Shown: positions 7,396 to 55,702 of the stretch, one piece after another
Layout: every line of letters starts with the position of its first letter
How positions within the stretch are numbered: position 1 is the first letter of the stretch
IMG/VR virus record: IMGVR_UViG_3300037882_001264
Span: 38,810 to 102,809 of that record
Strand: one strand, 5' to 3'
DNA length: 64,000 bases
DNA from: a virus
Notes under the pieces: generated by a model
Databases searched by the model: none
What the model was told of the DNA's origin: nothing
What the model saw: the letters and a program-made list of their open reading frames with translations, nothing else
Made by a program: the position numbers and the translations under genes

Positions 7396-10020
7396 CTACT
7401 TCTTCGGGATCATCTTGTAGACGTCGACCATGGTCTCCGCGAAGTCCATGCCGTTCTTCAACTTCTGCTTGGGTGACCTACCCTCTTCACCCTCGCCCTT
7501 GGCGGGAGCAGTACCGGGGACGTGCATTGGGTTCTTCTTGACTTCGTCGATGACCTTCTTGGGGCCGTCTTCGATCGCCTTCTCAGTCAAGTGCGTGAGC
7601 GGGCCATCACCGCTGTGCTGCGGCGGCGCGAAGGATAGCGGGTTCCACTCAGCGACCACCGAGGGGAACCGGTCTACGGTCTCCCCCGCGAGCGCGAGTG
7701 CGGAGGTCACCGAGAGGCTCGGGTTCTCCTCGATCACACGGCTGGCCATCGCTGCGACAACCTGCTCGCGACGGCTGGCTTGCGTGCCGCTCGTGGGCTC
7801 GAAGTCGAGGTCGCTACCACCCTGCGCCTTGGGCGCGTTGCCGCCAGCGACAGCCGGGCCGCCCTCACGAGCCTCGGCCTTGGGCTGGGGGACGTTGGGG
7901 TTCTCGTTCTGCGCGACGACGTCGAAGGCACCCTCGGCGACCATCTTGCGGAGGGAGGCCAGCGCCTCGCCGCCAGTGGCATCCTCGACGGCCTTCTTGG
8001 GCTTCGGCTTGAGGCCAGACCCCTTGCACTTCGGGCAGGCCTTCGAGGCATCCCACGGGTGCGTTCCGCCACCCTTGCAGGCGCCGCAGTAAGGAGAGTC
8101 GTCGACAGCGCCGTTGTGGTGCTGCGGGCGCTTCTTCAGCCAGGCCTCCTGCTCGGGGGTCAGTTCACCGCGCAAGGGAACTCCGCCCTCCGGGAAGAGG
8201 TCCTTGGGGACGCCGCTCTTGGGGGCGCCAGGATGCGCCTGGCGGTCCCACTGCCACGAGGTGGGGTCGTCCTTCGGGTCGTAGGCGTTGGCAGCGAGAG
8301 CATCGAATGCGCCCTCGCGCACCATGGCACGGACCTGGTCGAGCGAGTAGGTCCGGTAGCGATCCATCGCGTCAGCGTGACGGTCGTAGGGGTCCGACTC
8401 GTGGGCGCGGTTCGAGCGCTCATCGTCCCCATAGGTCTCGCGATGCTCAGCATCAGAGTTCTCGGCCTCCTGCTGGCAGTCGTCACAGAGGTGGTGGCCA
8501 TAGGGGGCCTCGTCTCCGCAACCCTCGCACTCCCCAGCGGGGGGATTCGAGTGACCGTTCGCGACCTCGCTGGAGTACTGCGACATCTCGGCGTCGTTGA
8601 TCGCGGTCTTGCCAGCAGCAGAAGCCAGCCCGTGCTCGCTCGCCATCGACTTCTGGCAGTTGGTGCAGGTCTCGTTGCCGTAGGCGTTGGCGAAGCCGCA
8701 GGACTTGCACTCCTGGCGATCGTTGGCGGTCTTGACCGAGGACTCCTTCATCGGAGCACTCTTGTCCCACTGGGACTGCCGGTAGACGTCCCAGACGTCC
8801 TTGCCGTACGTCGAGATGGCCCAGGTCTTGTGGGCGTCGTAGTCGGCCTGAGTCGGCTGAGTGCTGCCGCCGTCGGGGTCCTTGCTGCGGATGTCGACGA
8901 GCGCGAAGCGACTCGACTCAGACTTCAGCGAGGCGTAGCGGTCGCTGTGGTCGGTGTGGTTGGCGCAGTACTCAGTGCCGGGCACCACGTCGTTCTCGCA
9001 GTACTCCGGGGGATTGATCGCAGTCGGGCCGTAACCCTCGCTGTGCACGATCGCATTGCACTGCGTGTCCTCATCGCCAGAGGCAGTCTTCGAGGAGGTC
9101 TTCAGGCTGACGGTTCCATCCCCACGACACGTCTGGCATCCAGTGTCGAACTTCCCGTCAGGCGAGACGACTCGACCGTGGCCGCTGCACTCAGGGCAGA
9201 TGCCCCGCTGCTCCGGCGGCGAGTAGGGCTTGCCGTTCTGGGTGAGCGTCTTGCCACTGGAGTCGAACGTCTCGTCGCCGTGGTAGCCGCTGTAACCGTA
9301 GGAGCCGTCGTCGTTGACCGTGACGTGCCGGGGCCCGTCCCAGAAGTTGTTCGGGTCGTGGACCAGCGTGTTCGGCTTGGTGGGGTGCCACACGACCGGG
9401 CCTGAACCGTGCTCGAAGCGAGCGTTGAGCGCGTCGGCATGCTCCTTCGGAGCGACCGTGTACTCGCTGCCCTCGGGGTCATCGATCGTGTGCGAGCGCC
9501 AGGTGTCGCCCCCAGCAGTTACCTGGCTACCCTCGAAAGGGAGGCGGCTCCCAGACTTGCCGAAGGGGTTGCCCGAGTCGTCGTCCGAGTCGTCGTCATC
9601 GTCATCCGAGTCATCGTCGCCCGAGTCATCCGAGTCCGAGTCATCGTCTTGATCGTCCGAACCGGAGTCGTCAGCATCGTCGCTGCTGTCGTCATCGCTG
9701 TCATCGGAGTCGTCGGAGTCCGAGTCGTCAGCGTCGCCATCCGAGTCGGTCTCCCACGGCTTTCCGCTGGCCTCCATGAGGAGCGCCCACTGCGAGCGGA
9801 GGTGGGCCTCGACGTCAGAAGGACCCACTCCAGCCGAGGCTGCGACCGTGCTGATGGCGTCCTCCGCCAGGGCAAGGCGATGCCCCAACTCGGCCTCGGT
9901 GCGAGCCAGCGCCACGTAGGGCATCAGGTCTCGCGAGGCCACGCGGGTGCTCGCCTGCGTACGGAGGGAAGCCTCTTCGTTGATGTCACGAGCGGCTTCG
10001 TCCCAGAGTGAGTACGTCAT
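7396..10020 (-). CDS. Large acidic multi-zinc-knuckle protein, 874 aa
   Basis: A modular protein without a recognisable overall family. N-terminal helical part (1-88); an almost pure Asp/Ser tract (about 92-149); the phrase GNPFGKSGSRLPFEGS (150-165); a beta-rich Gly/His part (170-270); a DnaJ-type zinc module with CPECSGHG at 275 and CQTCRGDG at 295; a Cys/His cluster at 321-354; a rubredoxin-like pair CKSCGF/CTNCQK (438-456); a second pair CEGCGD/CDDCQQ (498-515); and another DnaJ-type pair CGACKGGG/CPKCKGSG (645-669). MVREGAFDALAAN (566-578) recurs as MVAEGAFDVVAQN (693-705), so the zinc part may be duplicated. The C-terminus is basic. The start ATG is at 10020. DnaJ-type modules usually bind unfolded protein, so chaperone or scaffold work in head assembly is possible but unproven. 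Confidence 0.8.
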   Translation of the reverse strand: MTYSLWDEAARDINEEASLRTQASTRVASRDLMPYVALARTEAELGHRLALAEDAISTVAASAGVGPSDVEAHLRSQWALLMEASGKPWETDSDGDADDSDSDDSDDSDDDSSDDADDSGSDDQDDDSDSDDSGDDDSDDDDDDSDDDSGNPFGKSGSRLPFEGSQVTAGGDTWRSHTIDDPEGSEYTVAPKEHADALNARFEHGSGPVVWHPTKPNTLVHDPNNFWDGPRHVTVNDDGSYGYSGYHGDETFDSSGKTLTQNGKPYSPPEQRGICPECSGHGRVVSPDGKFDTGCQTCRGDGTVSLKTSSKTASGDEDTQCNAIVHSEGYGPTAINPPEYCENDVVPGTEYCANHTDHSDRYASLKSESSRFALVDIRSKDPDGGSTQPTQADYDAHKTWAISTYGKDVWDVYRQSQWDKSAPMKESSVKTANDRQECKSCGFANAYGNETCTNCQKSMASEHGLASAAGKTAINDAEMSQYSSEVANGHSNPPAGECEGCGDEAPYGHHLCDDCQQEAENSDAEHRETYGDDERSNRAHESDPYDRHADAMDRYRTYSLDQVRAMVREGAFDALAANAYDPKDDPTSWQWDRQAHPGAPKSGVPKDLFPEGGVPLRGELTPEQEAWLKKRPQHHNGAVDDSPYCGACKGGGTHPWDASKACPKCKGSGLKPKPKKAVEDATGGEALASLRKMVAEGAFDVVAQNENPNVPQPKAEAREGGPAVAGGNAPKAQGGSDLDFEPTSGTQASRREQVVAAMASRVIEENPSLSVTSALALAGETVDRFPSVVAEWNPLSFAPPQHSGDGPLTHLTEKAIEDGPKKVIDEVKKNPMHVPGTAPAKGEGEEGRSPKQKLKNGMDFAETMVDVYKMIPKK

Positions 10021-17258: not shown

Positions 17259-17497
17259 AGCAGTACCTCTATCTCTTCATCGGCTAGGTGTGATACTGAG
17301 TAGTCTTGGTCATTCGCCACGTATCGTAGCATCACGAGGGCGTCGTGTCCAGTCTTCCCTTGCTGGGTGCGCACATGGGTGATGTAGCCACGCCCCTCCT
17401 GGACGCGGATCACGCGACCGCGCTCAAGGTTTGAGGCGGGCAGGGTCCATGCAACGGGCTCGGGCTCTTCCTCGGGAGTCAGCGGAGCCTCAGACAT
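17255..17497 (-). CDS. Hypothetical protein, 80 aa
   Basis: ATG 17497 overlaps the last codons of the polyprotein gene by 8 nt and is preferred over an upstream start that would overlap by about 100 nt. The protein is acidic at the start (SEAPLTPEEEPEP) and beta-rich afterwards (LERGRVIRVQEGRGYITHV, ALVMLRYV). It may be a small barrel. The longer start would add a basic hydrophobic N-terminus (RKILLAAALGSLAYAYV), that is, a membrane anchor; the start choice is therefore not certain. Confidence 0.6.
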   Translation of the reverse strand: MSEAPLTPEEEPEPVAWTLPASNLERGRVIRVQEGRGYITHVRTQQGKTGHDALVMLRYVANDQDYSVSHLADEEIEVLL

Positions 17498-20400
17498 TGC
17501 GACCCTCACGTATGCGTAGGCGAGCGAGCCGAGGGCTGCTGCGAGGAGGATCTTCCTTGCCCTCACTGAGTACCTCATCAGACGCAAAGATGTGGGACGG
17601 GTGGATGTCGCTGGGCCAGTAGTCCTCGCCCAGGTTGCCCCGGTAGGGGGTCTCAGCGTGCTCCATGTGCTGTGCGGCTGGGTTGTTGACGCTACCCCTC
17701 ACGACGCGCACCGGTACATGGCTGACGCCCTCCTCGTGAGCAGCCTGGACTCGGTGGTTGCCTTCGCCGAGGTAGGCATGGTGGGTCTTCGGATCGAAGA
17801 TTACCATGGCCGGATCCTTGAACCCCTCGCCGTTGCGGAGGGACTCGCGGTAGTGCTCTACGCCGGAGCGCTCAGTCTCGTTGCCGTGCATCTTGCGCAG
17901 CGCGTCGGTGCTGACATAGCCGATGACAGATCGGTCCTCGCCCTGACCGCCCATGCCGCTGTCACGGTAGTGGTTCATGTTCGGGTGCAGCGTCGTGGGG
18001 TCGACCTTCGAGGCGATCTTCTGACCGTGCTGGTCGCGCTTGATGAACATCCCCTCCTCGTCGAAGTCTTCATCCTTGGGCTCGGCCAGGGTCTGCTTGA
18101 CGTCGTCGAACTCGTTGTGACCGAAGCCCCGGTCGCCAGTCATGTACCCCTTCCAGCGATTGTAGTGCTGGGTGTGCTGCTCGGGTGTCATGTCGCGGAC
18201 GTCAGGACCGTCGTAGTGGTAGCCCTCGCCGAAGTGATGGCGCGGGGGCTGATCCCAGCCGTCCCGCTCGATCGGCTTTCCAGAGTCAAACTCGCTGCCG
18301 TGGTGGCTCTCGATGCGGCCATGCTCACCGAATGCCTCGCGCTCGTGCGCGTCGAGGGGGATGACTCGATGCACCTTCACCTTGTCGAAGTGCTCGGCGG
18401 GTATGAACTTCTCTCCGCCCCATCGCTCGTCGGTAGCGACTCCCTTGGGGGAGTGGATCTCTGCCACGTATGGGCGAACGTAGCCCTGCGTTCCAGTCCA
18501 GTCGCTAGGGCGCTCAGCCGTGTAGAGGCCCTTGTGCTCGCGAGGACGGATGGACAATGCGTTGTCCTCCGGCTGGTGGTCCGGGTTCAGCGCGAAGTGG
18601 GGGTTATCAGTAAGGTGGTAGGTCACCTCGTGATCCTGAGACGACGTCTTCTGGTCGGGGAAGCGAGCATCGACCAACTGCTGCCACAGCCCCGCCTGGT
18701 CGAGGTACTTCTCGACGGCGTTGCGGTAGTCGAACACACCCTGGCCATGCGGGCCGAATGCCCCCGAGCGCGAGGAGTGGATGTGCTCCCAGATGCGCTT
18801 GGCACGGTTCGAGCGCGCTGGCTCCGGGAGGGCGAGCGCACCCTTGACCTGCTGCGCGACGCCCTCGAAGTAGTACCACTCCGTCGGCGAGAACTTGTGG
18901 CCCTTCGGCTCGCTGACGGGGCGCACGGCCCACTCGTCGTCGGAGAGGTTGTACGCGGCGTAGGGCTTGATCACGCGGATGTCGTAGGAGTTCGGGTTGA
19001 CGTAGAAGGTGCTCGACCAGGGGCCGACACGCACCTTGCCACCCTCGGGGTCGCCAGCCCATTCCCACTCGGGGACTTCGCTGGAGGGCACGTTGAGGTA
19101 GACACCTTCGAGGTTGCAGTGCTCACGCAGTTCAGCGTTGAGGTGAGCCGACACCATCTTGGGGCTCATGCCAGCGAACTGCGGATTGGCCTCGACCAGC
19201 CCCTTGTACTCGACGCCGATCAGTGTGTCGAGGTCATCGTTGAGCCGGTACTTCGGGTCGACTTCGCGATCGGCTGCATGAGCCTGGATGGCGTTCTTGT
19301 CAGCCCACCACTCGGAGATGCTGGAGCCAGCGATGTAGACCTTGCTCCAGGTGCGCCAGTTGGAGTAGCGACCGTCCCACCATGCAGCCAGTCGCCCCAT
19401 GGCGTAGTCGCGGACCTCGGGGCGGATCCTGTCGCCGTCGAACAGGCGCGGGTCAAGGCTACCGTTCGTCGGGGCGAAGAGGCGGTCGGTCGGTTGCCAG
19501 GTGTCGAGGACGTGAGACTCGCGAAGAAGCGCCTGCTTTATCGTCTTCCATGGGGTGTGCTTGACCTCCTTGCGGAGCGCGGGCATGTCGGGTAGATCAG
19601 CGATGTCCCACCAGGCCACGACCTCAATGTCATCACCCTTGGGGTCATCGGGATTGCGGACGTGACGGTCTTCGTGGTCGGGATTGAGGTCGATGTCATC
19701 CTCGGTGGGGATCGTCAGGACAAACCCCTGGTAGATCCCGTTCGGGCTGACCCAGTTCGCCGTGACCTCAGCGTCGCTGGGGATCTTCAGCCCGGTCTCC
19801 TCGGAGAACTCACGGCGTGCAGCGGCGAGGGGGTCCTCACCCTCATCGATATGACCTCCGGGGAACTCCCAGGTGCCACGAGCCGGGTCCGACTCGTCCT
19901 CGTTGGAGCGCTGGATTAGCAGGATGCGACCGGAGTCCTTGGCCTTGAGGCACAGCCCCGCAACCTCGATGCTCTTCGCCTCAGCAAAGTGCTGGAGGAT
20001 CGACACCGGCTGGAAGTCCTTCTTGCGGAGCCGAGGCCTTGCCTTGGTAGCGTCCTCGTATGCGACTTCGTGCTGGTCCCAGTCGTGCGGCTCGTACACG
20101 TCGCTGCCGTCAGAAACACTCTTGACGAATCCCCTGCCATCGCGGGTGAGGTCGTCAGAGTGCATTGGCAGGGTGTCGACGTGACCGGCGTCGTGCAGTT
20201 GCTGGGCGTGCTCCAGCATCTTGCGCGCGACACCCTTGCCGTCGTACCCCCGGCCCACCTGCACCCAGGTGATCTCACCGGGCTTGTACTGGCGGCTGCC
20301 GTCCTTGCCGACCCACGAGAGGCTCCCGACAGGAGCACCGCGATCTGGCAGCCGGGCGTGGATAACGTGCTTCTCCCCACCGAGGGTGGGCTGCTTCTCG

Positions 20401-20981
20401 TAGTGGAGTTTCAGACCATCGAGCGAGTAGTCATCGCCGAATCCACCAAAGTGCTGGAGAACCCCGAGAGTGTAGTCATGCTTGGTCCCCTTGGGGTCGG
20501 CCACCTCATCGTGGAACGCCCCGGGGTCCTTTCCGGACTCTTCGCCGTCCTCCCAGTTGCTGTCATCCCACCCTCTGGTGTTCATCCAGGTCCGACCGTC
20601 CTCAGACAACTCAGGAGAGTGGATGGGAAACGAATCGGCCTGGCCACTGGTGTAACGCTCCTTGGCGTGTTCCATCATGGCGCTGGCAATGCCCTTGCGA
20701 CGATGGTCCTCATGAACCCACACATTGGAGATCTCACCCGGGTAGTGCCCATCGGACTCCGAGTACCTCTCCGATTCGCGAGGAGCCCAGGTCATGCTGC
20801 CCACGAGCCCACCCGAGGATGGGCTGTGAGCCTCAACAGCATGGTGGGGAGTTATGTAGTGGGGCGTTCCGTCACCCTTCCTGCGCCCCGGGAAGAAGCG
20901 GAACTTCAAGTCTGAGGGCAGATCTCCGCTGGAGCCGCCAAAGTGCTGAAGCAGGGAGGCACCATCGGGCTGCTGGCTCAC
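17490..20981 (-). CDS. Multi-enzyme polyprotein: GNAT-GNAT-Nudix-NTase-like-ART-like-ParB-like
   Basis: 1163 residues from the GTG at 20981 (GGAGG 5 nt upstream). Segments: GNAT-like 1 (about 20-150, acetyl-CoA loop HRRKGIASAMMEHA at 93-106); GNAT-like 2 (about 180-290, YDGKGVARKMLEHA); a complete Nudix hydrolase (about 335-490) with the box at 376-398 (G-x5-E-x7-RE-x2-EE-x-G, all key residues present); a nucleotidyltransferase-like region (about 500-780, VYIAGSSISEWW then DDLDTLIGV); a region beginning VTYHLTDNPHFAL (786 on) that may be ADP-ribosyltransferase-like, low certainty; and a ParB/sulfiredoxin-like segment near 1015-1100 (YLGEGNHRVQAA). The phrase LQHF occurs just before each of the first three domains (11-14, 175-178, 329-332). 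It lies between terminase and portal behind its own promoter and long leader. Packaging into the head is inferred by analogy with T4 Alt. Confidence 0.85.
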   Translation of the reverse strand: MSQQPDGASLLQHFGGSSGDLPSDLKFRFFPGRRKGDGTPHYITPHHAVEAHSPSSGGLVGSMTWAPRESERYSESDGHYPGEISNVWVHEDHRRKGIASAMMEHAKERYTSGQADSFPIHSPELSEDGRTWMNTRGWDDSNWEDGEESGKDPGAFHDEVADPKGTKHDYTLGVLQHFGGFGDDYSLDGLKLHYEKQPTLGGEKHVIHARLPDRGAPVGSLSWVGKDGSRQYKPGEITWVQVGRGYDGKGVARKMLEHAQQLHDAGHVDTLPMHSDDLTRDGRGFVKSVSDGSDVYEPHDWDQHEVAYEDATKARPRLRKKDFQPVSILQHFAEAKSIEVAGLCLKAKDSGRILLIQRSNEDESDPARGTWEFPGGHIDEGEDPLAAARREFSEETGLKIPSDAEVTANWVSPNGIYQGFVLTIPTEDDIDLNPDHEDRHVRNPDDPKGDDIEVVAWWDIADLPDMPALRKEVKHTPWKTIKQALLRESHVLDTWQPTDRLFAPTNGSLDPRLFDGDRIRPEVRDYAMGRLAAWWDGRYSNWRTWSKVYIAGSSISEWWADKNAIQAHAADREVDPKYRLNDDLDTLIGVEYKGLVEANPQFAGMSPKMVSAHLNAELREHCNLEGVYLNVPSSEVPEWEWAGDPEGGKVRVGPWSSTFYVNPNSYDIRVIKPYAAYNLSDDEWAVRPVSEPKGHKFSPTEWYYFEGVAQQVKGALALPEPARSNRAKRIWEHIHSSRSGAFGPHGQGVFDYRNAVEKYLDQAGLWQQLVDARFPDQKTSSQDHEVTYHLTDNPHFALNPDHQPEDNALSIRPREHKGLYTAERPSDWTGTQGYVRPYVAEIHSPKGVATDERWGGEKFIPAEHFDKVKVHRVIPLDAHEREAFGEHGRIESHHGSEFDSGKPIERDGWDQPPRHHFGEGYHYDGPDVRDMTPEQHTQHYNRWKGYMTGDRGFGHNEFDDVKQTLAEPKDEDFDEEGMFIKRDQHGQKIASKVDPTTLHPNMNHYRDSGMGGQGEDRSVIGYVSTDALRKMHGNETERSGVEHYRESLRNGEGFKDPAMVIFDPKTHHAYLGEGNHRVQAAHEEGVSHVPVRVVRGSVNNPAAQHMEHAETPYRGNLGEDYWPSDIHPSHIFASDEVLSEGKEDPPRSSPRLARLRIREGRNV

Positions 20982-20990
20982 GGTCACCTC

Positions 20991-21010
20991 CACACCCTTT
21001 CGGGGCCCCC
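20991..21010 (-). promoter_or_regulatory. Start-associated element, copy D
   Basis: Minus-strand GGGGGCCCCGAAAGGGTGTG, leading into GGAGG and the GTG at 20981. A variant of the shared core. Confidence 0.5.
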
Positions 21011-21034
21011 ACGCTGAGAGCGACAGCAATGACT

Positions 21035-36340: not shown

Positions 36341-36513
36341 CCGGCGTCCATGCGGGACTTGCCCCAGTCGTAGTCGTGCACATCGTCAGCATCGAGGATG
36401 TCGTTCGATGCGTAGATGTCCGGGATCCCCGTGTCGTCCTTCTCGCAGGAGACACAGAGCCCTAGGTCGCCGACCCGGCAGACCCTGCCACAGTTCTCGC
36501 AGTTCTCCCTCAT
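36337..36513 (-). CDS. Small zinc-finger protein, 58 aa
   Basis: ATG 36513 overlaps the RNR stop (ATGA). RENCENCGRVCRVGDLGLCV followed by SCEKD gives three Cys pairs, likely one or two zinc ions. Acidic tail (DILDADDVHDYDWG). May be an accessory of the nucleotide or replication enzymes. No family. Confidence 0.65.
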   Translation of the reverse strand: MRENCENCGRVCRVGDLGLCVSCEKDDTGIPDIYASNDILDADDVHDYDWGKSRMDAG

Positions 36514-38831
36514 ACCTCGCACGACCCCGCAAAGCACGCCAACTCGTGGGTGGCAGTGGTCATGTCCTCCAACTCGTACCGGTAGATGCGAGAGAAGTCG
36601 ATCGAGGGGAACGCAGCCACGCGGCTGTTGTACTCGTCCTCCGTGATCTCGGTGTAGGGCAACTGCTCGTACTGGGCATCGTCGAGGGGGAGGAACGACA
36701 GACCACCGACCTGCTCACGGTGCTCCCAGACCCACTTGATGATGTCGAGCAACTCGTCCGGGGCGTAGGAGACGGTGCAGGACGGGTTGTGCTCCGTCCA
36801 GTTCTCCTTGGCCATGAGCCAGTACTCCAGTTGCGCGATGGCGTTCATGTCACGCCGGAGGATAGCCCCCTCGGGCGACTTCATCGGGAAGGGGATCACC
36901 CAGGTGCGGCAGTCGTCCACGGTCTGCCCGTTCTCGGGGTTCATCGGGACACCCTGCTCGCGCAGCGCACGGGCTACCGGGGAGGTCGCTGCGACGCGCA
37001 TGTTGCGAACCAGAAAGGCCGAGTGGCGAGCGTGGATCCCGTTCGCGACGTCGAGGAACTGCGAGGAGTTGCCGCCCGGCTTGTCGGTGGTCACGGCAGC
37101 CGAGGGGTTGATCTTCAGCAGCGCGGCGGTCGCCTCGTTGACCTCAACCGCGTAGGCCTTCATCAACTTCATGACCTCGGGGTCGCGGATCACGGGGCAG
37201 TCCTGCTGGCCGGTGATGTCGACACCGAGCAGGCGCTCCTCGATCGCGTTCTGGACCCACTCGTCACGCATGCCGGGGAAGTTCGTCGCGAGGCTCTGGA
37301 TCGTGCCGATGATCGCGGCGATCTCGACCTTCTCCTTGAGCGTCTCGATGGTGTCATCGACACGGCCGACAGCGATCGAGAGGTTGCACAGGCCGTAGGG
37401 GCGCAGGTTGATCTCGCCACACGGGTTCGTGCCGAAGCGGGCCTTCTTGCGGCGCGAGGGGCGGTTGCGGACGGCGTTCTCTCGCGAGAAGATGCCGGGC
37501 TCACCACGCTGCCCCTTGTCCATGTCCAGCATCTGCTGGATGAGGTCCTGCTGCGTCAGGTCCTCGGGCCAGACGGCCGAGTTGTTCGCGTTCCAGCGCA
37601 CTGGGTTCTGGTCGAGTGCGATGCCCGTCTTGCACTCGCGCATCTCGCGGTCGTCCCAGTCGAACAGGGCGATCATGGCAGTGCGACGGACGCCACCCTG
37701 GACGGCAGCATCGCCGACGTGGCACATGATGTCGTGGGCGTCGATGGGGCGCAGGAAGGTGCCCTGGCGCTTGAGGATGATGCCACGGATGGCGCCGAGC
37801 ATCGCGCGCAAGGGATCGGGCCCAGAGGCGCGGCCACCCTTGCGACGCAGCGGCAGACCCGCCCGACGGATGCCGTCATAGCCGAAGGTGATGTCCTCAC
37901 CGGACATCCACTTGGACAGGCCCAGGCGGAGGGCCTCGACCCACCCCTCAGTCGAGTCCTCGATGTCGAGGTGCTCGACGACCTGGCGCTTCTTCTGGCG
38001 ACGGACCCGAGAGAACTGGTCGACGTAATCCGACTCGACCGAGTAGCCCACGCCGCAGCCGGACATCGAGAGCAGCATCGCCTCGCAGAACGCCTCAGTG
38101 TCGCTGACGGGGAGGTAGGAGCAGTTGTAGATCGCGAGGCTGTTCTCGCGCGCATAGTCACCCGCTGTGGCGAGGAGGCGCATCGAGGGCATGGCTCGCA
38201 TGCCGAGGATCGCATCGTGGATCCGGTCGAAGGTGCTGTCGGGGAGCGAGCCCTCTGCACCGTCGGCCAACTCCTTGAGGAAGTCGACCGTCCTGTCGAC
38301 CGTCTCGATCCAGGTCTCACGGCGACCGAGTTCGTAGGAGTAGCGGGAGTACTTGTCGAAGAAGGTGAACTGCTGCGCATCGGTGGGGAAGTGGAGCGCC
38401 GCCTCGTCGAACGCGGCCTTCACGTCATCAGGGACCGGGCGCAACTTGCGCTCCTGCGCGTGCTGCTCGCGGTAGAGGATGAAGCGCCGAGCAGCCTCGA
38501 ACTCGCCGCTCGACTGGAGCGCGTACTCGACAGCATCCTGCACAGCCTCGATGCTCGGCGTGCTGCCATTGGCGAAGCGCGCGGAGACAGCGAACGCTGC
38601 CTGGACGGCGATGTCATCTGCGCCAACCGTCGGCGTGGACTCGCACTCGGCGTAACAGCGCAAGACTGCGCCCTCGATGCGTGTGACGTCGAACGGAGCC
38701 AGACGGCCATCCCTCTTCTGCACCTGCTCAGGTACCGAGAGCCCAGCCTTCTCGATCTGCCACGCCACCTTGCTCTTGTTGACCACGGTTGTACTTCCCC
38801 TCTTGGTTGATGCGACGGTAGTGCTGGTCAC
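36510..38831 (-). CDS. nrdJ: Ribonucleotide reductase, class II (B12-dependent) type
   Basis: 773 residues from the GTG at 38831 that overlaps the helicase stop (GTGA); a GTG about 60 nt further in (RBS AGAGGGGAAG) is an alternative. An ATP-cone opens the protein (QVQKRDGRLAPFDVTRIEG). The catalytic barrel has NCSYLPVSDTE, AMLLSMSGCGVGYSVESD, and FGTNPCGEINLRPYGLCNLS, with the active-site Cys in the NPCGEI loop. The C-terminus ends CFAGSCEV, the redox Cys pair. No class I small subunit or class III activase gene is visible, which fits a B12-dependent class II enzyme. It makes deoxynucleotides, with ThyX and dNMP kinase as partners. Confidence 0.85.
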   Translation of the reverse strand: MTSTTVASTKRGSTTVVNKSKVAWQIEKAGLSVPEQVQKRDGRLAPFDVTRIEGAVLRCYAECESTPTVGADDIAVQAAFAVSARFANGSTPSIEAVQDAVEYALQSSGEFEAARRFILYREQHAQERKLRPVPDDVKAAFDEAALHFPTDAQQFTFFDKYSRYSYELGRRETWIETVDRTVDFLKELADGAEGSLPDSTFDRIHDAILGMRAMPSMRLLATAGDYARENSLAIYNCSYLPVSDTEAFCEAMLLSMSGCGVGYSVESDYVDQFSRVRRQKKRQVVEHLDIEDSTEGWVEALRLGLSKWMSGEDITFGYDGIRRAGLPLRRKGGRASGPDPLRAMLGAIRGIILKRQGTFLRPIDAHDIMCHVGDAAVQGGVRRTAMIALFDWDDREMRECKTGIALDQNPVRWNANNSAVWPEDLTQQDLIQQMLDMDKGQRGEPGIFSRENAVRNRPSRRKKARFGTNPCGEINLRPYGLCNLSIAVGRVDDTIETLKEKVEIAAIIGTIQSLATNFPGMRDEWVQNAIEERLLGVDITGQQDCPVIRDPEVMKLMKAYAVEVNEATAALLKINPSAAVTTDKPGGNSSQFLDVANGIHARHSAFLVRNMRVAATSPVARALREQGVPMNPENGQTVDDCRTWVIPFPMKSPEGAILRRDMNAIAQLEYWLMAKENWTEHNPSCTVSYAPDELLDIIKWVWEHREQVGGLSFLPLDDAQYEQLPYTEITEDEYNSRVAAFPSIDFSRIYRYELEDMTTATHELACFAGSCEV

Positions 38832-40132
38832 CTGACCTCGACCTCTCTCATTGCGTTGATATGGCCACTGGCCGGGCGCCAGTCCATGTCCCACGACTTC
38901 AGATCTTCACGGCGAGCCGCAAGGACCTGGAGCGTGGCTTGATTCGCCTCCCGCTGGAGGTGACTCTGGTACAGGCCGAAGACCCAGTCGGCAGTGCGCT
39001 CGACGTCGGACCCCTCAGCCAGCATGTACATCTCCAGGTAGCCGGTCTTCTCGGCTGCCTTCATGCCCTCGCGGTTGACCTGGTGAGCGAGCATGCAGGG
39101 CATCTGCTCGCGACCACTGGAGATGTTGATCTTGAAGCCCTGCATGAGGTCGCGGACGATCTCGTAGCGGGGCTTGTTGCGCGGGTTGGGGTGCTGGACG
39201 AACGTCAACTGGTCGACGAACAGCGAGTCCGCCCCGAGCATCTGAGCCTGCCGGTAGATCTGGTCCGGCGTGCGCATCGAGTCCTGGGGGCTGATGATGT
39301 GGAGCCGGTCCTTCAACTTCGGCAACTCATCCTCGCGGTACCACTCCATGCGCTGCTTCTCGTCATCGGTCAGCAGACCACGCTGCCAGGCGCGGCCATC
39401 GATGCCCAGCGCGAAGCAGATGATGCGGCCGACTGTCATCTCGACGCTGTTTTCCAGCGTGAAGAGGACTGCGCGGCGACCCTGCTGCGCGTTGCGGAGC
39501 GCGAGCGCGTCCAGGAAGAACGACTTACCCGTCTTCGGGCCAGCGGCCAGGACAGCGAGTTCGCCGTCGTGGATGCCGTAGGTGTGGTTGTCGATCAGCG
39601 GCATCTCGAAGGTCATACCGCGCTTGCTCAGGCCTGCTGACTCACGACCGTTGTAGTCAGCCAGCGCCTGGTCGAACCCGCTGACGAACTCCTCGGTCTG
39701 TCGGCGTGGCTGCAAGCCCGATGCGATGTCGAAGAGCGTGCCCATCTGCTCAGTGAGAGCGTTCAGGCGATCCGGGGGCGCGGCCGAGGCCATCGCCATG
39801 CCAGCGTCGCGCTGCCACTGCTGGAACGTGTAGTGCACGTACTGGCTCTTGAGGTGGTCAACCGCCCAGGAGATGGTGTCGACCTGCTCGCTCTCGTCGG
39901 GCAGGTCGATCTTGGCGTCCTCCAGGGCAACGCCCCAGACGTCCACCAGCGCCTCGCGCGAGGGGGCGTGCGTCCGGCCAGACTCGAAGTAGCGGTTGAT
40001 CGCCCACTCGACGACGGGGCGGATCTCCTCAGTGGGAATGCACTCGGGCGGAAGACCTTCCTTGACCAGCGTCTCGATGTCGTCGGTCTCGGTGAGGGCG
40101 GCGAGCAGTGAGATCTCTGCGGGGCTGCTCAT
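38828..40132 (-). CDS. dnaB: DnaB-like replicative helicase
   Basis: 434 residues. The N-terminal helical domain (1-110) and linker lead into the RecA-like motor with Walker A LAAGPKTGKSFFLDAL, an arginine-containing helix (RRAVLFTLENSVEM with the catalytic Glu), Walker B LFVDQLTFV and CMLAHQVNREG (motif H4). These match hexameric DnaB-family helicases that unwind the fork. Adjacent to a DnaC-like loader (overlapping by 4 nt), primase and polymerase; together they form a replisome operon. Confidence 0.88.
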   Translation of the reverse strand: MSSPAEISLLAALTETDDIETLVKEGLPPECIPTEEIRPVVEWAINRYFESGRTHAPSREALVDVWGVALEDAKIDLPDESEQVDTISWAVDHLKSQYVHYTFQQWQRDAGMAMASAAPPDRLNALTEQMGTLFDIASGLQPRRQTEEFVSGFDQALADYNGRESAGLSKRGMTFEMPLIDNHTYGIHDGELAVLAAGPKTGKSFFLDALALRNAQQGRRAVLFTLENSVEMTVGRIICFALGIDGRAWQRGLLTDDEKQRMEWYREDELPKLKDRLHIISPQDSMRTPDQIYRQAQMLGADSLFVDQLTFVQHPNPRNKPRYEIVRDLMQGFKINISSGREQMPCMLAHQVNREGMKAAEKTGYLEMYMLAEGSDVERTADWVFGLYQSHLQREANQATLQVLAARREDLKSWDMDWRPASGHINAMREVEVR

Positions 40133-40965
40133 CCGAGCACCACCGGTCGGGTGATGCCCTGCCGGTACTCCTGCCGGGTCCGCTCGCCGAGGTCGGTGTT
40201 GCGGAAGTCAGCACCGAAGAGGCGGATGAACTCCGAGCCGCCCACGAGGCGCGAGAAGATCGGACCTCCGTACCCGTCCTTGAGCCGCTCGGGCGTGAGG
40301 TTCGTGGTGATGATGGTGGGCAGGGATGCGTTGATCCGCGCCTGGATGACGACGTCGACACTGTCCATCACAGCGCCGCTGCGATTCTTGTGCTCACGGC
40401 CGACGTCGTCGATGACCAGCACCTGGGTGGTCATCGCAGTACGGTGGAACCAGTCGCGCTCGTCCTTGCTGCTCCATCCTGCGGCGAAGTCGTCGAGGAA
40501 CGAGGTGAAGGTGAAGAAGTGGCCGGTGTAGCCGAGGGAGAGGATACGCTTGAGAATCAACAGGGCGAGCAGAGTCTTCCCCACGCCCGTGTCTCCGTAG
40601 AGCACGAGCCCGCGCCCCGAGGTGACGTTGAAGGGGACGTCGTCGATGTAGTCAGCGATCTGCTGCATGACCGAGACATCTACGTGCGTCACGTCGCCCC
40701 ACGAGAGGCGCTGCCCTTCCCAGTTGATCCCGGCGTTTAGCAGCCAGAGGTGCATGACCATCTGGTCGATGCACGAGCAGTCGAACTCGGCGATCTCGCG
40801 ACTCGCGGTGTAGCCGAGGAACCACCCCTTGCCGGTGCAGACACGGCAGGGCTGCGACTTAGTGCACCAGAGGCTCGTGTCACGAGTCTTGAGGCGTTCG
40901 AGTTCGGTGTTGCTGATCAAGCGCACCGCTGGGTTCAGCGGCTGCATCTTGAGGCGGGTCATCAT
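40129..40965 (-). CDS. DnaC/DnaA-like AAA+ helicase loader
   Basis: 278 residues. A zinc-type N-terminus (CRVCTGKGWFL ... FDCSCIDQ) precedes an AAA+ ATPase: Walker A YGDTGVGKTLLA, Walker B VLVIDDVGRE, and a sensor-like TIITTNLT. The short C-terminus fits DnaC/DnaI loaders. It should deliver the DnaB-like helicase to the origin or fork. The ATG (or the next ATG) follows AGGAGC. It overlaps dnaB by 4 nt. Confidence 0.8.
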   Translation of the reverse strand: MMTRLKMQPLNPAVRLISNTELERLKTRDTSLWCTKSQPCRVCTGKGWFLGYTASREIAEFDCSCIDQMVMHLWLLNAGINWEGQRLSWGDVTHVDVSVMQQIADYIDDVPFNVTSGRGLVLYGDTGVGKTLLALLILKRILSLGYTGHFFTFTSFLDDFAAGWSSKDERDWFHRTAMTTQVLVIDDVGREHKNRSGAVMDSVDVVIQARINASLPTIITTNLTPERLKDGYGGPIFSRLVGGSEFIRLFGADFRNTDLGERTRQEYRQGITRPVVLG

Positions 40966-44826: not shown

Positions 44827-45074
44827 GCGGTTCCTCCTGCGGTGTAGTCGTTGACTTCTTCATCGCCGCCCCACTTGGCTCCCCCTCGAACGTGACGCCC
44901 TGGGTGGCCGACAGAGCGAGCGCAGCGGAGCCCATCGTAGACATCCGGGCATCGCTGAGCATCGGTGAGAGACGGCTGTGGCTTGCTGTACGGCTGCCCC
45001 AGGGTGTCAGGGTCGAGACCCATCGACTCCATGTGGCGCCGGTTGATGTCCGCCTGGGTCAGGCGCTCGGTCAT
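44823..45074 (-). CDS. Actinophage-type small Cys/His protein, 83 aa
   Basis: RCPDVYDGLRCARSVGHPGR, then HVRGGAKWGGDEEV, matches a common small-phage pattern C-x4-G-x-x-C-x4-GH-x-G-x-H...W, usually of unknown role. Start overlaps the thyX stop (ATGA). Helical N-terminus (LTQADINRRHMESMG). Confidence 0.7.
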   Translation of the reverse strand: MTERLTQADINRRHMESMGLDPDTLGQPYSKPQPSLTDAQRCPDVYDGLRCARSVGHPGRHVRGGAKWGGDEEVNDYTAGGTA

Positions 45075-45772
45075 GGCGCGACTCTCCCGTTGGCGACGAA
45101 GGAGGCGTACGTCAACGGCATGGCCTCCTTGAAGAACGCCTCGTACTGCTCGGCGACGATCTCGATCTCGCGCTGGGGGAACGAGGGGAAGGTGCTGTTC
45201 TCGTCCTTGGTGCGCAGCGAGAGGAACGACATCAGTGAGCGTGCATTGCAGGTGACGAAACAGGTCGAGTAGATGTTGACCGGCAGCACCATGCGGGCAA
45301 CCTCGCGAGCGATCTCGTCCTCAAGCGAGTGCTCATAGACGTCGTAAGCCAGCCGGTTGGCGCGCTTCATGTTCGCGACCAATGTCTTGTACTGGGTATC
45401 GCTGCCAGGGAGGAAGATGTAGTGGCCCGGTTTGCCGGTCTGCACGAGGTTGCGCTCGGGAGAAGGGACGTAGAAGACCGGGTCCAACTGCTTGTAGCGG
45501 CCCGACTCCTCGTTGTACGAGAAGCCGATACGGTGGCGGTGGTGCTCACGCCAGACGAAGATCGGAGCGGTGACACGGAAGGTGAACATGTTGTGCTCGA
45601 AGGGCGTCCCGTGCCTCCCCCGCATGAGGAAGTCGATCAGGCGAGCGCTTTCCTCGGCCTCAGCCTCTGCACCAACGGTGGACACTCGGGCTGACTGCAC
45701 GACGTCTGCGTCTCTTGCGTTGGACGAGATCAGCGTCACGGGGATCTCGCTGGTGAAGGTCAGGTCTGTCAT
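45071..45772 (-). CDS. thyX: Flavin-dependent thymidylate synthase ThyX
   Basis: 233 residues. The ThyX motif R-H-R-x4-S-x-N-E-x-S-x-R-Y is seen in HHRHRIGFSYNEESGRY. RHGTPFEHNMFTFRVTAPIF precedes it and ARMVLPVNIYSTCFVTCNAR supplies the later substrate-binding part. It converts dUMP to dTMP with FAD and methylene-tetrahydrofolate. Together with RNR and dNMP kinase it supplies dTTP precursors. Ends overlapping the next gene. Confidence 0.92.
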   Translation of the reverse strand: MTDLTFTSEIPVTLISSNARDADVVQSARVSTVGAEAEAEESARLIDFLMRGRHGTPFEHNMFTFRVTAPIFVWREHHRHRIGFSYNEESGRYKQLDPVFYVPSPERNLVQTGKPGHYIFLPGSDTQYKTLVANMKRANRLAYDVYEHSLEDEIAREVARMVLPVNIYSTCFVTCNARSLMSFLSLRTKDENSTFPSFPQREIEIVAEQYEAFFKEAMPLTYASFVANGRVAP

Positions 45773-50832: not shown

Positions 50833-50861
50833 ACAATACACGAGTCCGGCGCTGGGGTCAA
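50833..50861 (-). promoter_or_regulatory. Sigma70-like promoter TTGACC-N17-TATTGT
   Basis: -35 TTGACC (50861-50856), 17-nt spacer, -10 TATTGT (50838-50833); same hexamers and very similar flanks as 16342-16370. The -35 overlaps the stop of the nucleotidase gene above. Confidence 0.8.
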
Positions 50862-51487
50862 GTGCTGAGCAGGTGCAACTTCCGAGATCTTTCCAGCCAG
50901 ACCTCACGCTCGGCTCGGATGTCCGCAGCCTCACGACCGGCGACCATGCGGGCGAACTGCCCGATATCGTCGACTCTGAAGAAGTTGCCCGGGACCTCCC
51001 GGTTCCATCCGCGCGTGACGAGGAACGGAACGCTCTCCGAGGACTCCAGGCTCTTGTAGTGCTTGACCTGGTCCTCGACGTACGCATCGGTCCTGACGAT
51101 GGTCTTGTCCGAGGAGAAGGTCAGGGAGTCGAAGGGGAAGTTGTGCAGGGTGAGCCAGTCAGAGGTGAACCCGATGGCAGCGCGAGGGCGGGACGTCACG
51201 ATGTGGATCTGGTGTCCGAGCGAGTGGAGCATCCTCGCCCAAGATGCAGCCTCGTCGAGCATCTCGCCGCTGTAGGCGAACCCCTGCTCGGTGGCCTCAT
51301 CGTGGACCTGGTCGAAGTCCTCATCGGTCAGGCCCCAGGGCTTGTAGAAGCCGAAGGAGCCCACCTCAGTCCCGACAATCTCAGCGGGGGTGCCGGGGTG
51401 CTCGATCGCGCGGAGGTAGCGATGGATGCCACCGACGAAGCAGTGGGCGACTCCATCGAGGTCAATGCCAATACGAGCGAGGCTCAT
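50858..51487 (-). CDS. HAD-family 5'(3')-deoxyribonucleotidase-like protein
   Basis: 209 residues. HAD motif I is ARIGIDLDGVAHCFVGG (Asp nucleophile and Asp +2), motif II is HIVTSRPRAA (Thr/Ser), Lys motif SSDKTIVRTDAYV and motif IV with DAYVEDQVKHYK. This is the order of NT5C-type deoxyribonucleotidases that remove phosphate from dNMPs. It may adjust dNMP pools or degrade modified/host nucleotides. Overlaps the next gene by ATGA. Confidence 0.75.
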   Translation of the reverse strand: MSLARIGIDLDGVAHCFVGGIHRYLRAIEHPGTPAEIVGTEVGSFGFYKPWGLTDEDFDQVHDEATEQGFAYSGEMLDEAASWARMLHSLGHQIHIVTSRPRAAIGFTSDWLTLHNFPFDSLTFSSDKTIVRTDAYVEDQVKHYKSLESSESVPFLVTRGWNREVPGNFFRVDDIGQFARMVAGREAADIRAEREVWLERSRKLHLLST

Positions 51488-52017
51488 AGACTCACGTACC
51501 TTGCTGGCTCACGAACGCCGGTAGAGGAATAGGCGGCAGCCTGCACTGCCAGGGTGACGCGCTGCTTGGGGGTCAAGTCGAAGCCTTCGCTGGTAAAGAG
51601 CGAGCCCATGGCTGCGTTGAAGCCAGAGCCAACTGCGGTGTACGCGACCTGGGGCTCGAACACGCTGTAGTCGTCACCGTAGACAAAGATGCGACCGTGG
51701 ACCGCAACGAGCAGATCGGTGTCCTCGTCCATCTTCTCATCAGTGGAGCCGCCTGGGCTTTCATTCAGCAGCCCAGCGATCGTGGTGGCGAACTGGGTAG
51801 CCATGAACCGTTCGAGATTGGTGGTCGGAGGTGTCGGGAGGCTGGAGTGGTGAAGGACATTGATCACGCGCATGCTGGTGCACGCGCCGATGAGGTAATC
51901 ACCGTTGATCGCGACCTTCGGTGTAGAGATGATCACTGACTGACCGTCGCCACTCATCTCGGAGTCGTAGGCCGCGTGCACCACCCCCTCGTCCGCCAGC
52001 ATCGCGATGCAGGTCAT
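51484..52017 (-). CDS. Proteasome/HslV-like Ntn hydrolase, 177 aa
   Basis: ATG 52017 shares a base with the stop above (TAATG); in-frame sequence above is not protein-like. After Met, the sequence is TCIAMLADEGVVHAAYDSEM, so Thr 2 would be exposed as the N-terminal nucleophile after Met removal, as in HslV and proteasome beta subunits. VAINGDYLIGACTSMRVIN, RIFVYGDDYSVFE and QVAYTAVGSGFNAAMGSLFT are beta-sandwich strands of the same fold (with GSG...A.G). Such proteins are self-compartmentalised peptidases; it may need an ATPase (host ClpX/Mpa or none). A phage-encoded form could degrade host or phage proteins. Activity is inferred. Confidence 0.7.
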   Translation of the reverse strand: MTCIAMLADEGVVHAAYDSEMSGDGQSVIISTPKVAINGDYLIGACTSMRVINVLHHSSLPTPPTTNLERFMATQFATTIAGLLNESPGGSTDEKMDEDTDLLVAVHGRIFVYGDDYSVFEPQVAYTAVGSGFNAAMGSLFTSEGFDLTPKQRVTLAVQAAAYSSTGVREPARYVSL

Positions 52018-53694: not shown

Positions 53695-54054
53695 TCAGGG
53701 AAGGATCAGTCCAGAGGCCGACCCGTTGCTGCTGGCCTGCTCGGATTGAGCCGACAGGTATTCGCTCCTCGACTTACGGATACCTTCGACCATGCCCCTG
53801 GTCATCTCGGCGATGGCATCGTCGGTGACGCCGAGGTCGAGGATCGTGCTGAGCCCTTGCGAGCGCTCGCCGAGGACGACTCCAGGCATCGTGACGACAG
53901 CGATGATCGCTGGCATGAACTGGCCCGGCGTGTTGCCAGGGAGCATCATGATCGAGACGCCGAAGTCTGCGTCCTCACCTGGCGCACATACGGCCAGGGT
54001 GGACTCCATGACGTCGGAGATTCGCGTGATGAGGTTGGGGTTCTTGCTGGTCAT
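53695..54054 (-). CDS. Hypothetical protein, 119 aa
   Basis: A small alpha/beta protein with SIMMLPGNTPGQFMPAIIAV and a C-terminal helix (VTDDAIAEMTRGMVEGIRKS), ending in a Ser/Gly-rich tail. The start overlaps the helicase stop (ATGA). The family is common in actinophages as an uncharacterised gene; no role known. Confidence 0.6.
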   Translation of the reverse strand: MTSKNPNLITRISDVMESTLAVCAPGEDADFGVSIMMLPGNTPGQFMPAIIAVVTMPGVVLGERSQGLSTILDLGVTDDAIAEMTRGMVEGIRKSRSEYLSAQSEQASSNGSASGLILP

Positions 54055-55658
54055 GACGACCTCTTTCGGTTGCGGTGGGTACGGGCGATTCGGAGTGCTG
54101 CCTTGCGTTCCTCGGCAGTCATGAAGTTCTCTCCGGCATCCTCGTCTCCAAGGAGGATGTCGGTCTGCTCGTTGCGGTCGATCATCTTGATGCCGATCGA
54201 CTCCTCGACAGTGCCATCGAGGAAGAAGGTCATGCAGGTCACCGACTCAGCAATCGAGTCGATTCTGTGAACCCGGTCGAGCCTCTGCGTTCGGTTGGCG
54301 TACGATAGCGCCGATTCGTACTCGACAACATAGGTCCCCTCAGGGAGGTTGATTCCTCGTGCCCCCGCGTCAGAAGTGAGGAACACACATGGGTCTGGAT
54401 CCGAGCGGAACGACTTACGCGACTCGGTCTGTGCCGCCATGGTCATCTGGCCGTGGTTCAGGTAGACCTTGAAGCCGCTCTCGGTGAGCCGCTTCTGGAT
54501 CACTCGCAAGACCGACTGGCCGAAGAAGGTGAAGACGACAGCCTTGGCGCCCTGCCCCTTGACAACCATGTCGAGGTAGTGCAGGAGTTCCTCTTCCTTC
54601 GCCGAAGAGCACGCCCGCAGGGCATCGGCGCCGATCTCCTCCACGACCATCTTGGCCAGTTTGGAGCCCTCGGGGTTCTCACTGCCGTAGATGAGGCTGG
54701 ACGGGGCACCAGCGACCTGTCGGAGCAAGGTCCATAGGCCGGGCACCGGATCCTCCTGGCCGTCCTGGAGGGCCTCCAGTGTCTCGTAGAGGTTGCGCTG
54801 ATCGTCAGCCATCTGGATGTGCATGGCCTCTTCGACGCGCTTGGGAAACTGGTCGATGATGTCGGGGTCAGACTTGCGCTTGCGGATGATCGCCTTCTGG
54901 CAGATCGCGGCGAAGTCGAGAATGCGCGTGGGGTGGTAGGTGGGCCGGTTGTAGAGGTCCCGGCTCTGGACGTAGACACGCTCGAACTCGGCGACCGTCG
55001 GCATGAGGTCGGGCCGGACGATCCGCATCTGGTTGAAGGCGTCCTCGTAGTCCCGCTCCAGCGGCGTGGCGGTCAGACCCCAAGCCCGGATCTCCGTCGG
55101 GTGGACCTTGCGGAGTTCCTTCAGCGTGCGCTGGTGGGCCTTGTAGATACCCGAACTGCGCTTCCGGAGTTTGACCGGGATCTCGTCGTAGAAGATGGCC
55201 ACGCGCAGGGGGCGGATGATCTCAAGGAGCGGGCCGTCTTTCACGGAGGTGCCCCTGCCGCCAGGAGTACGCACGAAACGCGCCAGGTCGGCCTTAGCCG
55301 TCTCGTAGGTCGTCACGAGCACCTGGGGAACCCCCTTGCGCTCCAGGCGCTGCATGCGCCCGCTCCCATGGTGTACACGAGTGTCCAGCCTGGTGTACTC
55401 CTGGAAGTCGTCCTTCCACTCCCCGACCTTGCCCTTCTCTGCCACGAGCAGCACCAGGTCAGTCTGATCGTCCTCGAACAGTACGGTGGCCAGGCGCATG
55501 GCTGCGTGGCTCTTTCCCGTGCCCGTGTCCCAAACGAGCAGGCCGGAACCCATGACGTACATCCGCGCGATGCCGTCGACTTGGAACGGGTAGAGGCCCC
55601 GGGGCGAGTGGTAGAGCGCACCCTCAGGCCAGCCGTCCTCGGGGAGGGGGCTTGACAT
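54051..55658 (-). CDS. SNF2/DEAD-type helicase-ATPase, 535 aa
   Basis: ATG 55658 is used; a TTG 9 nt upstream is an alternative. Superfamily 2 motifs: LYPFQVDGIARM (Q-like), Walker A LVWDTGTGKSHAAM, motif Ia LVTTYETAK, Walker B IFYDEIPVK, motif III WGLTATPLERDYED, a C-terminal lobe with AVVFTFFGQSVLRVIQ, GARGINLPEGTYVVEYE (motif V) and RTQRLDRVHRID (motif VI). The pattern fits SNF2-like translocases. In phages such proteins often serve replication or recombination remodelling. It lies after the tail genes. Confidence 0.85.
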   Translation of the reverse strand: MSSPLPEDGWPEGALYHSPRGLYPFQVDGIARMYVMGSGLLVWDTGTGKSHAAMRLATVLFEDDQTDLVLLVAEKGKVGEWKDDFQEYTRLDTRVHHGSGRMQRLERKGVPQVLVTTYETAKADLARFVRTPGGRGTSVKDGPLLEIIRPLRVAIFYDEIPVKLRKRSSGIYKAHQRTLKELRKVHPTEIRAWGLTATPLERDYEDAFNQMRIVRPDLMPTVAEFERVYVQSRDLYNRPTYHPTRILDFAAICQKAIIRKRKSDPDIIDQFPKRVEEAMHIQMADDQRNLYETLEALQDGQEDPVPGLWTLLRQVAGAPSSLIYGSENPEGSKLAKMVVEEIGADALRACSSAKEEELLHYLDMVVKGQGAKAVVFTFFGQSVLRVIQKRLTESGFKVYLNHGQMTMAAQTESRKSFRSDPDPCVFLTSDAGARGINLPEGTYVVEYESALSYANRTQRLDRVHRIDSIAESVTCMTFFLDGTVEESIGIKMIDRNEQTDILLGDEDAGENFMTAEERKAALRIARTHRNRKRSS

Positions 55659-55702
55659 GTAGGCCAATCTATCCTATAAGGGCAGGTTGGTCCAACTCGG
55701 GA

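Follow-up and report, generated by a model that had tools for sequence, protein, structure and literature searches.

A proteasome-type Ntn hydrolase gene of the PHROG 1040/AAH-like kind in a probable actinophage: a candidate ring peptidase acting without ATP

Fuchs et al. described 22 new proteasome homologs in 2021, PPH and AAH among them (PMC8665760). AAH occurs in phages, alphaproteobacteria and actinobacteria, although no actinobacterial phage carrying it could be found at that time (PMC8665760). PPH, with about 140 amino acids and no helix H2, is present in phages and hosts (PMC8665760). BPH is made without a propeptide and forms a heptameric double ring, for which neither genome searches nor pull-downs revealed an unfoldase; the pull-downs recovered no ATPase at all, HslU included (PMC5777263). 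The pore loop of BPH is long and acidic, HslV having instead a short linker with basic residues (PMC5777263), and Fuchs et al. linked this acidic loop to the absence of an unfoldase (PMC5777263; PMC8665760). For the new homologs, likewise, they detected no AAA+ interactor that co-occurs with them (PMC8665760). When purified, BPH showed no activity on any of the standard substrates offered to it, peptides as well as casein (PMC5777263). The superfamily also holds the split-ring Anbu and connectase, a monomeric ligase in which H1 and H2 are missing and a helical insertion lies between the early strands (PMC8665760).

The DNA analysed here (the window) is a stretch of 64,000 nucleotides, positions 38,810 to 102,809 of the 102.8-kb IMG/VR record IMGVR_UViG_3300037882_001264. 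It carries a gene of a familiar type, represented in many phages and on some bacterial plasmids. The gene lies inside a co-oriented run, in which a conserved block reads, in order of transcription:

54051-55667, minus strand: SNF2-type helicase, first gene of the block
53695-54054, minus strand: 119-aa protein with no assigned function, found in the same place in the related loci L016/L017
52017-53441, minus strand: 474-aa MRE11/exonuclease-type phosphoesterase (phrog_284)
51484-52017, minus strand: proteasome-type Ntn hydrolase, 177 aa (MTCIAMLADEG...), without propeptide; PHROG 1040, AAH-like
50858-51487, minus strand: 209-aa NT5C 5'-nucleotidase

The Ntn hydrolase frame is intact, running from ATG to TGA over 177 codons, and Thr2 follows Met1 directly. 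The first-pass annotation had its coordinates exactly right; the strand, which it left out, is the minus strand, and a plus-strand reading was rejected since that frame contains stops. The G+C content at codon positions 1, 2 and 3 is 58, 47 and 76%, as is usual for a protein-coding frame where the DNA is rich in G+C. On its upstream side the gene meets the MRE11-type gene in the sequence TAATG, the TAA stop sharing one base with the Ntn ATG, and this overlap suggests that translation of the two is coupled. On the downstream side the junction is ATGA, the Ntn TGA overlapping the NT5C ATG. Homologs of the upstream gene in mycobacteriophages are annotated as MRE11, exonuclease or metallophosphatase.

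The same five genes stand in the same order in L016/L017, with identities of 64% (SNF2), 41% (119-aa protein), 55% (MRE11-type), 50% (Ntn) and 44% (NT5C). Since the block is shared despite a G+C content of 43% in L016/L017 versus 64% in the window, it must be old. In L016, too, the last base of the MRE11-type gene is the first of the Ntn gene. A more distant MRE11-type phosphoesterase, 27% identical to that of the window, lies directly upstream of the Ntn gene in L078 (L078:2483-4549), and in tblastn searches such a neighbour was found only in L016/L017 and L078. A general association of the family with metallophosphoesterases was considered and rejected; a motif scan of neighbouring genes found none but carries no weight, being crude enough to miss the window's own. 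A universal gene context was also rejected, the neighbourhoods of the family being heterogeneous.

Elsewhere the window holds a block for replication and nucleotide metabolism, which shares its strand with the lysis and tail genes:

36510-38894: ribonucleotide reductase
38828-40132: DnaB-like helicase
40129-40965: DnaC-like loader
45071-45772: ThyX

Two further frames are unusual. One (7396-10020, minus strand) encodes a protein of 874 aa that matches no PHROG and resembles zinc-ribbon/DnaJ cysteine repeats only weakly. The other (17490-21029, minus strand), a frame of 1179 aa, encodes an unusual multidomain protein that contains a NUDIX-like stretch in its interior and weakly matches acetyltransferases and portal proteins.

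The catalytic residues and the pore loop of the Ntn hydrolase are encoded as follows:

52012-52014, minus strand: codon of Thr2, Thr1 after removal of Met, the residue predicted to act as nucleophile (of 106 aligned proteins, 105 have Thr here and 1 has Ser)
51964-51966, minus strand: codon of Asp18, proteasome Asp17 (Asp in 105/106)
51916-51918, minus strand: codon of Lys34, proteasome Lys33 (invariant, 106/106)
51718-51759, minus strand: H2-S7 pore loop, residues 87-100, SPGGSTDEKMDEDT, 14 residues, net charge -4

Once Met is removed, T1, D17 and K33 (T2, D18 and K34 in Met numbering) stand at canonical spacing. Thr or Ser at position 1 is kept jointly with Asp17 and Lys33 in all but one of the 106 proteins. 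The sole failure is L063:4001-4519, where Glu takes the place of Asp17; Glu at this position is also a feature of the archaeal proteasome. The oxyanion-hole glycine (proteasome Gly47) corresponds, in our own mapping of the profile alignment, to Gly44 of the window protein, with Gly in 99 and Ala in 7 of the 106. Arg50, kept in 104/106, aligns by our own count with proteasome residue 53, which contributes to the shape of the S1 pocket. A preference for acidic P1 residues due to Arg50 may be envisaged as a speculation. Residue 36, near the S1 pocket, is Ala in the clade of the window protein versus Phe in the family consensus. The median dN/dS is 0.09 over 103 pairs of close relatives, which share lineages and are therefore non-independent; this is an indication of purifying selection that would hold for the family rather than for the window gene itself.

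An AlphaFold2 model of the single chain, built on a 106-row alignment, has a mean pLDDT of 94.6 and a pTM of 0.90, and its order of strands and helices is that of a proteasome β subunit, including H1 (residues 49-57) and H2 (68-86). The pore loop is its least confident part. Compared with the PDB by Foldseek, the model matches BPH best (5ovs, E=4e-13, TM 0.80), followed by HslV and then by proteasome subunits, Mycobacterium tuberculosis PrcB appearing at rank 50 with 18% identity. A PDB search with the window sequence alone gave no match, while the family profile recovered HslV and also BPH, the latter along positions 2-176 with E=5.7e-11. The first-pass proposal of a proteasome/HslV-like Ntn hydrolase with Thr2 as nucleophile is thus borne out by the model, by the order of the Foldseek matches and by the retained triad; neither a missing Lys or Asp nor a different fold was encountered. 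Together with the family matches, this agreement lies far outside what chance would produce.

The protein matches phrog_1040, "peptidase HslV family", over residues 1-169 (E=1.6e-17), and PHROG 1040 is present in hundreds of viral contigs. By tblastn, proteins 25-35% identical to it are encoded in 23 phage records, with hosts that include Vibrio, Psychrobacter, Moorella, Geobacillus, Xanthomonas, Tenacibaculum, Ochrobactrum and Microbacterium, among others. With one sub-alignment as query, IMG/VR yielded no fewer than 548 relatives. A related-locus search with the single protein as query returned nothing, and small alignments as query did return relatives. Similarly, the Pfam Proteasome model (PF00227) fails on the window protein itself, though at E<=0.1 it picks up 35 of the 106 relatives. 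A scan of genome contigs gave three weak relatives only; the bacterial distribution of the family was drawn from a plasmid collection, in which relatives occur in Rhizobium/Sinorhizobium, Paraburkholderia, Streptomyces and Bacillus. Several AAH-like genes, those of L180, L181, L183, L184 and other plasmid matches, reside on large plasmids, either of Streptomyces or of nodule-associated Rhizobium/Sinorhizobium, and in L181 and L183 the gene adjoins transposases.

The nearest relatives of the window protein are those of L016/L017 and L018, at 50% identity. In the tree, the window protein, L016 and L018 form a clade with support 100/98, which lies outside the branch with the rhizobial and Streptomyces proteins; between L018 and the rhizobial members, identity is about 34-38%. 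BPH (two sequences) and E. coli HslV sit on separate long branches. Because many inner forks of this tree, which covered viral and plasmid relatives, BPH and HslV, are unsupported, the window protein would at most be called divergent AAH-like.

The host is likely to be an actinobacterium, as the first-pass annotation had supposed. Portal protein matches lie nearly all in phages of Mycobacterium, Gordonia and Rhodococcus, and the MRE11-type gene matches actinophages. A WhiB gene, a possible host marker, was searched for in the window record and none was found. WhiB does lie directly upstream of the homolog in L018 and directly after the homolog of actinophage DSL-LC01 (host assignment in PMC10611076).

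The absence of an ATPase partner, at first noted for the neighbourhood of the gene, extends to the whole 102.8-kb record. No AAA_2 domain (HslU/ClpX type) is matched there, and the single AAA match, at 40129-40965 of the window, was rejected as an unfoldase partner, being a DnaC-like helicase loader beside DnaB. The HslV model TIGR03692 has no match in the record, nor was an hslU partner found. Possibly the record is incomplete, in which case an unfoldase gene could lie outside it.

We propose, with a probability of roughly 0.6, that the gene encodes a functional phage-borne BPH-like ring peptidase of the proteasome β/HslV superfamily that acts without ATP. The host methionine aminopeptidase, for which Met-Thr is a good substrate, would remove Met1 and, because there is no propeptide, would expose Thr1 at once. 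Thr1, assisted by Lys33 and Asp17, would then attack peptide bonds in the interior of a homo-oligomeric ring. Entry would be governed by the long acidic pore loop, not by an ATP-driven unfoldase, and in the infected cell the enzyme would presumably cleave peptides or proteins that have lost their fold beforehand. Ring assembly, activity and ATP independence of the window protein are what we infer from this likeness. What favours the proposal is the combination of a Thr directly after Met with an acidic loop of 14 residues, as in BPH; the net charge of this loop, -4, exceeds in acidity the family mean of -1.4. The suggestion that the protein may act alone is thereby favoured, the more so as the record has no unfoldase match. 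Two cautions follow from known members of the superfamily. As purified BPH is inert, activity of the window protein cannot be assumed, and since connectase shares the superfamily, the fold does not guarantee a peptidase role. The Ala at residue 36 of the window clade and the possible incompleteness of the record also weigh against the proposal.

An unlikely alternative is that substrates reach the enzyme, as they do in HslV, through an AAA+ unfoldase of the host that resembles HslU, ClpX or Mpa. HslV is indeed among the nearest solved relatives, and the phage appears to bring no unfoldase of its own. However, the pore loop is long and acidic as in BPH, rather than the short linker with basic residues of HslV, and the hosts of the family are very diverse. 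To our knowledge, most actinobacteria lack HslVU, which, together with the unlike pore loop, weakens the earlier idea that host HslU is used. The BPH pull-downs (PMC5777263) and the co-occurrence analysis of Fuchs et al. (PMC8665760) likewise speak against a delivering ATPase.

Less probable still is a peptidase of head assembly or packaging that trims virion proteins. It draws on about nine independent phage or prophage-like relatives in which the Ntn gene directly adjoins the large terminase and/or portal gene, and on the record of the window, which has no S78 prohead protease or ClpP-type match. Large phages may, however, use maturation proteases of other types. Moreover, the window gene has a helicase, an exonuclease and a nucleotidase for neighbours and lies outside the head module, most relatives are located elsewhere than beside terminase or portal, and several of the head-module copies are accompanied by an S78 protease of their own. 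In this plain tally, the terminase- or portal-adjacent relatives are L020, L028, L033, L037, L049, L050, L057, L088, L089 and L171, some with an S78 prohead protease next to them.

The protein could also be a monomeric specific enzyme, a ligase or amidase after the fashion of connectase, rather than a self-compartmentalised protease. The superfamily offers precedents in connectase and in split-ring Anbu (PMC8665760), and the oligomeric state of this family is itself inferred only. Nevertheless, the model has the H1 and H2 that connectase lacks, is free of a helical insertion between the early strands, and has the overall build of ring-forming BPH and HslV. We rate a connectase-like enzyme as unlikely, much like a head peptidase.

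Equally unlikely is a more specific variant, in which the clade of the window, L016 and L018 would be a distinct actinophage-specific homolog, its expression coupled to the MRE11-type nuclease and the 5'-nucleotidase, that removes a particular host or phage protein without ATP, for example a factor of nucleotide metabolism or defence. If true, the clade would represent a phage-made, unfoldase-free system of targeted degradation.

Least likely of all is that the protein interferes with the 20S proteasome of the host, or with its HslV, through co-assembly with host β subunits or capture of Mpa or HslU. In favour of this reading, PrcB has the same fold, the host is likely to be an actinobacterium, and a Pup-proteasome is present in many actinobacteria. 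Against it, the resemblance to PrcB is low and BPH is closer; the family-wide constraint on catalytic residues suits an enzyme better than a decoy; and the family also occurs in phages that infect Vibrio, Psychrobacter, Geobacillus, Moorella, Xanthomonas and Tenacibaculum, hosts for which no 20S proteasome is known. The earlier suggestion that the protein could compete with the host proteasome or poison it finds little support.

Phage proteasome homologs are common. Searches of the available literature for a tested function of such proteins found none, and we know of no phage-borne proteasome homolog, PHROG 1040 members included, that has been functionally tested. With relatives at 50% identity, a conserved and coupled operon and a probable actinophage as its carrier, the window gene is a compact and tractable test case. 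AAH-like genes are present in at least two deposited actinophage genomes (DSL-LC01 and the cultured Microbacterium phage Pumpernickel, where it is gene 135) and probably in the window too, which bears on the 2021 statement that no actinophage with AAH could be found.

How, then, does the window protein compare with the known systems? It is not a PPH, having 177 amino acids and an H2 at residues 68-86. With HslV (ClpQ) it shares the fold, Thr1 after Met, a similar length and the label "peptidase HslV family", but the pore loop of HslV is short and basic and that of the window protein longer and acidic. Members of PHROG 1040, such as those of Moorella phage MTATph1, Geobacillus virus E3 and Vibrio phage henriette 12B8, are full-length and have the same catalytic residues, whereas gene neighbourhoods vary from phage to phage. 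AAH is a compact group-I homolog related to HslV and BPH, and the plasmid relatives of the window family in Rhizobium/Sinorhizobium and Streptomyces fit its distribution. BPH (5ovs, 5ovt, 5ovu) is the best structural match and resembles the window protein in the lack of a propeptide, in the set of Thr1, Asp17 and Lys, in the long acidic H2-S7 pore loop and in having no known unfoldase. It differs in being a cellular gene, on a separate branch of the tree and with 15-21% identity, and its heptameric double ring has been demonstrated, whereas the window protein is known from its sequence and a single-chain model. In build, the window protein is closest to BPH and the AAH group.
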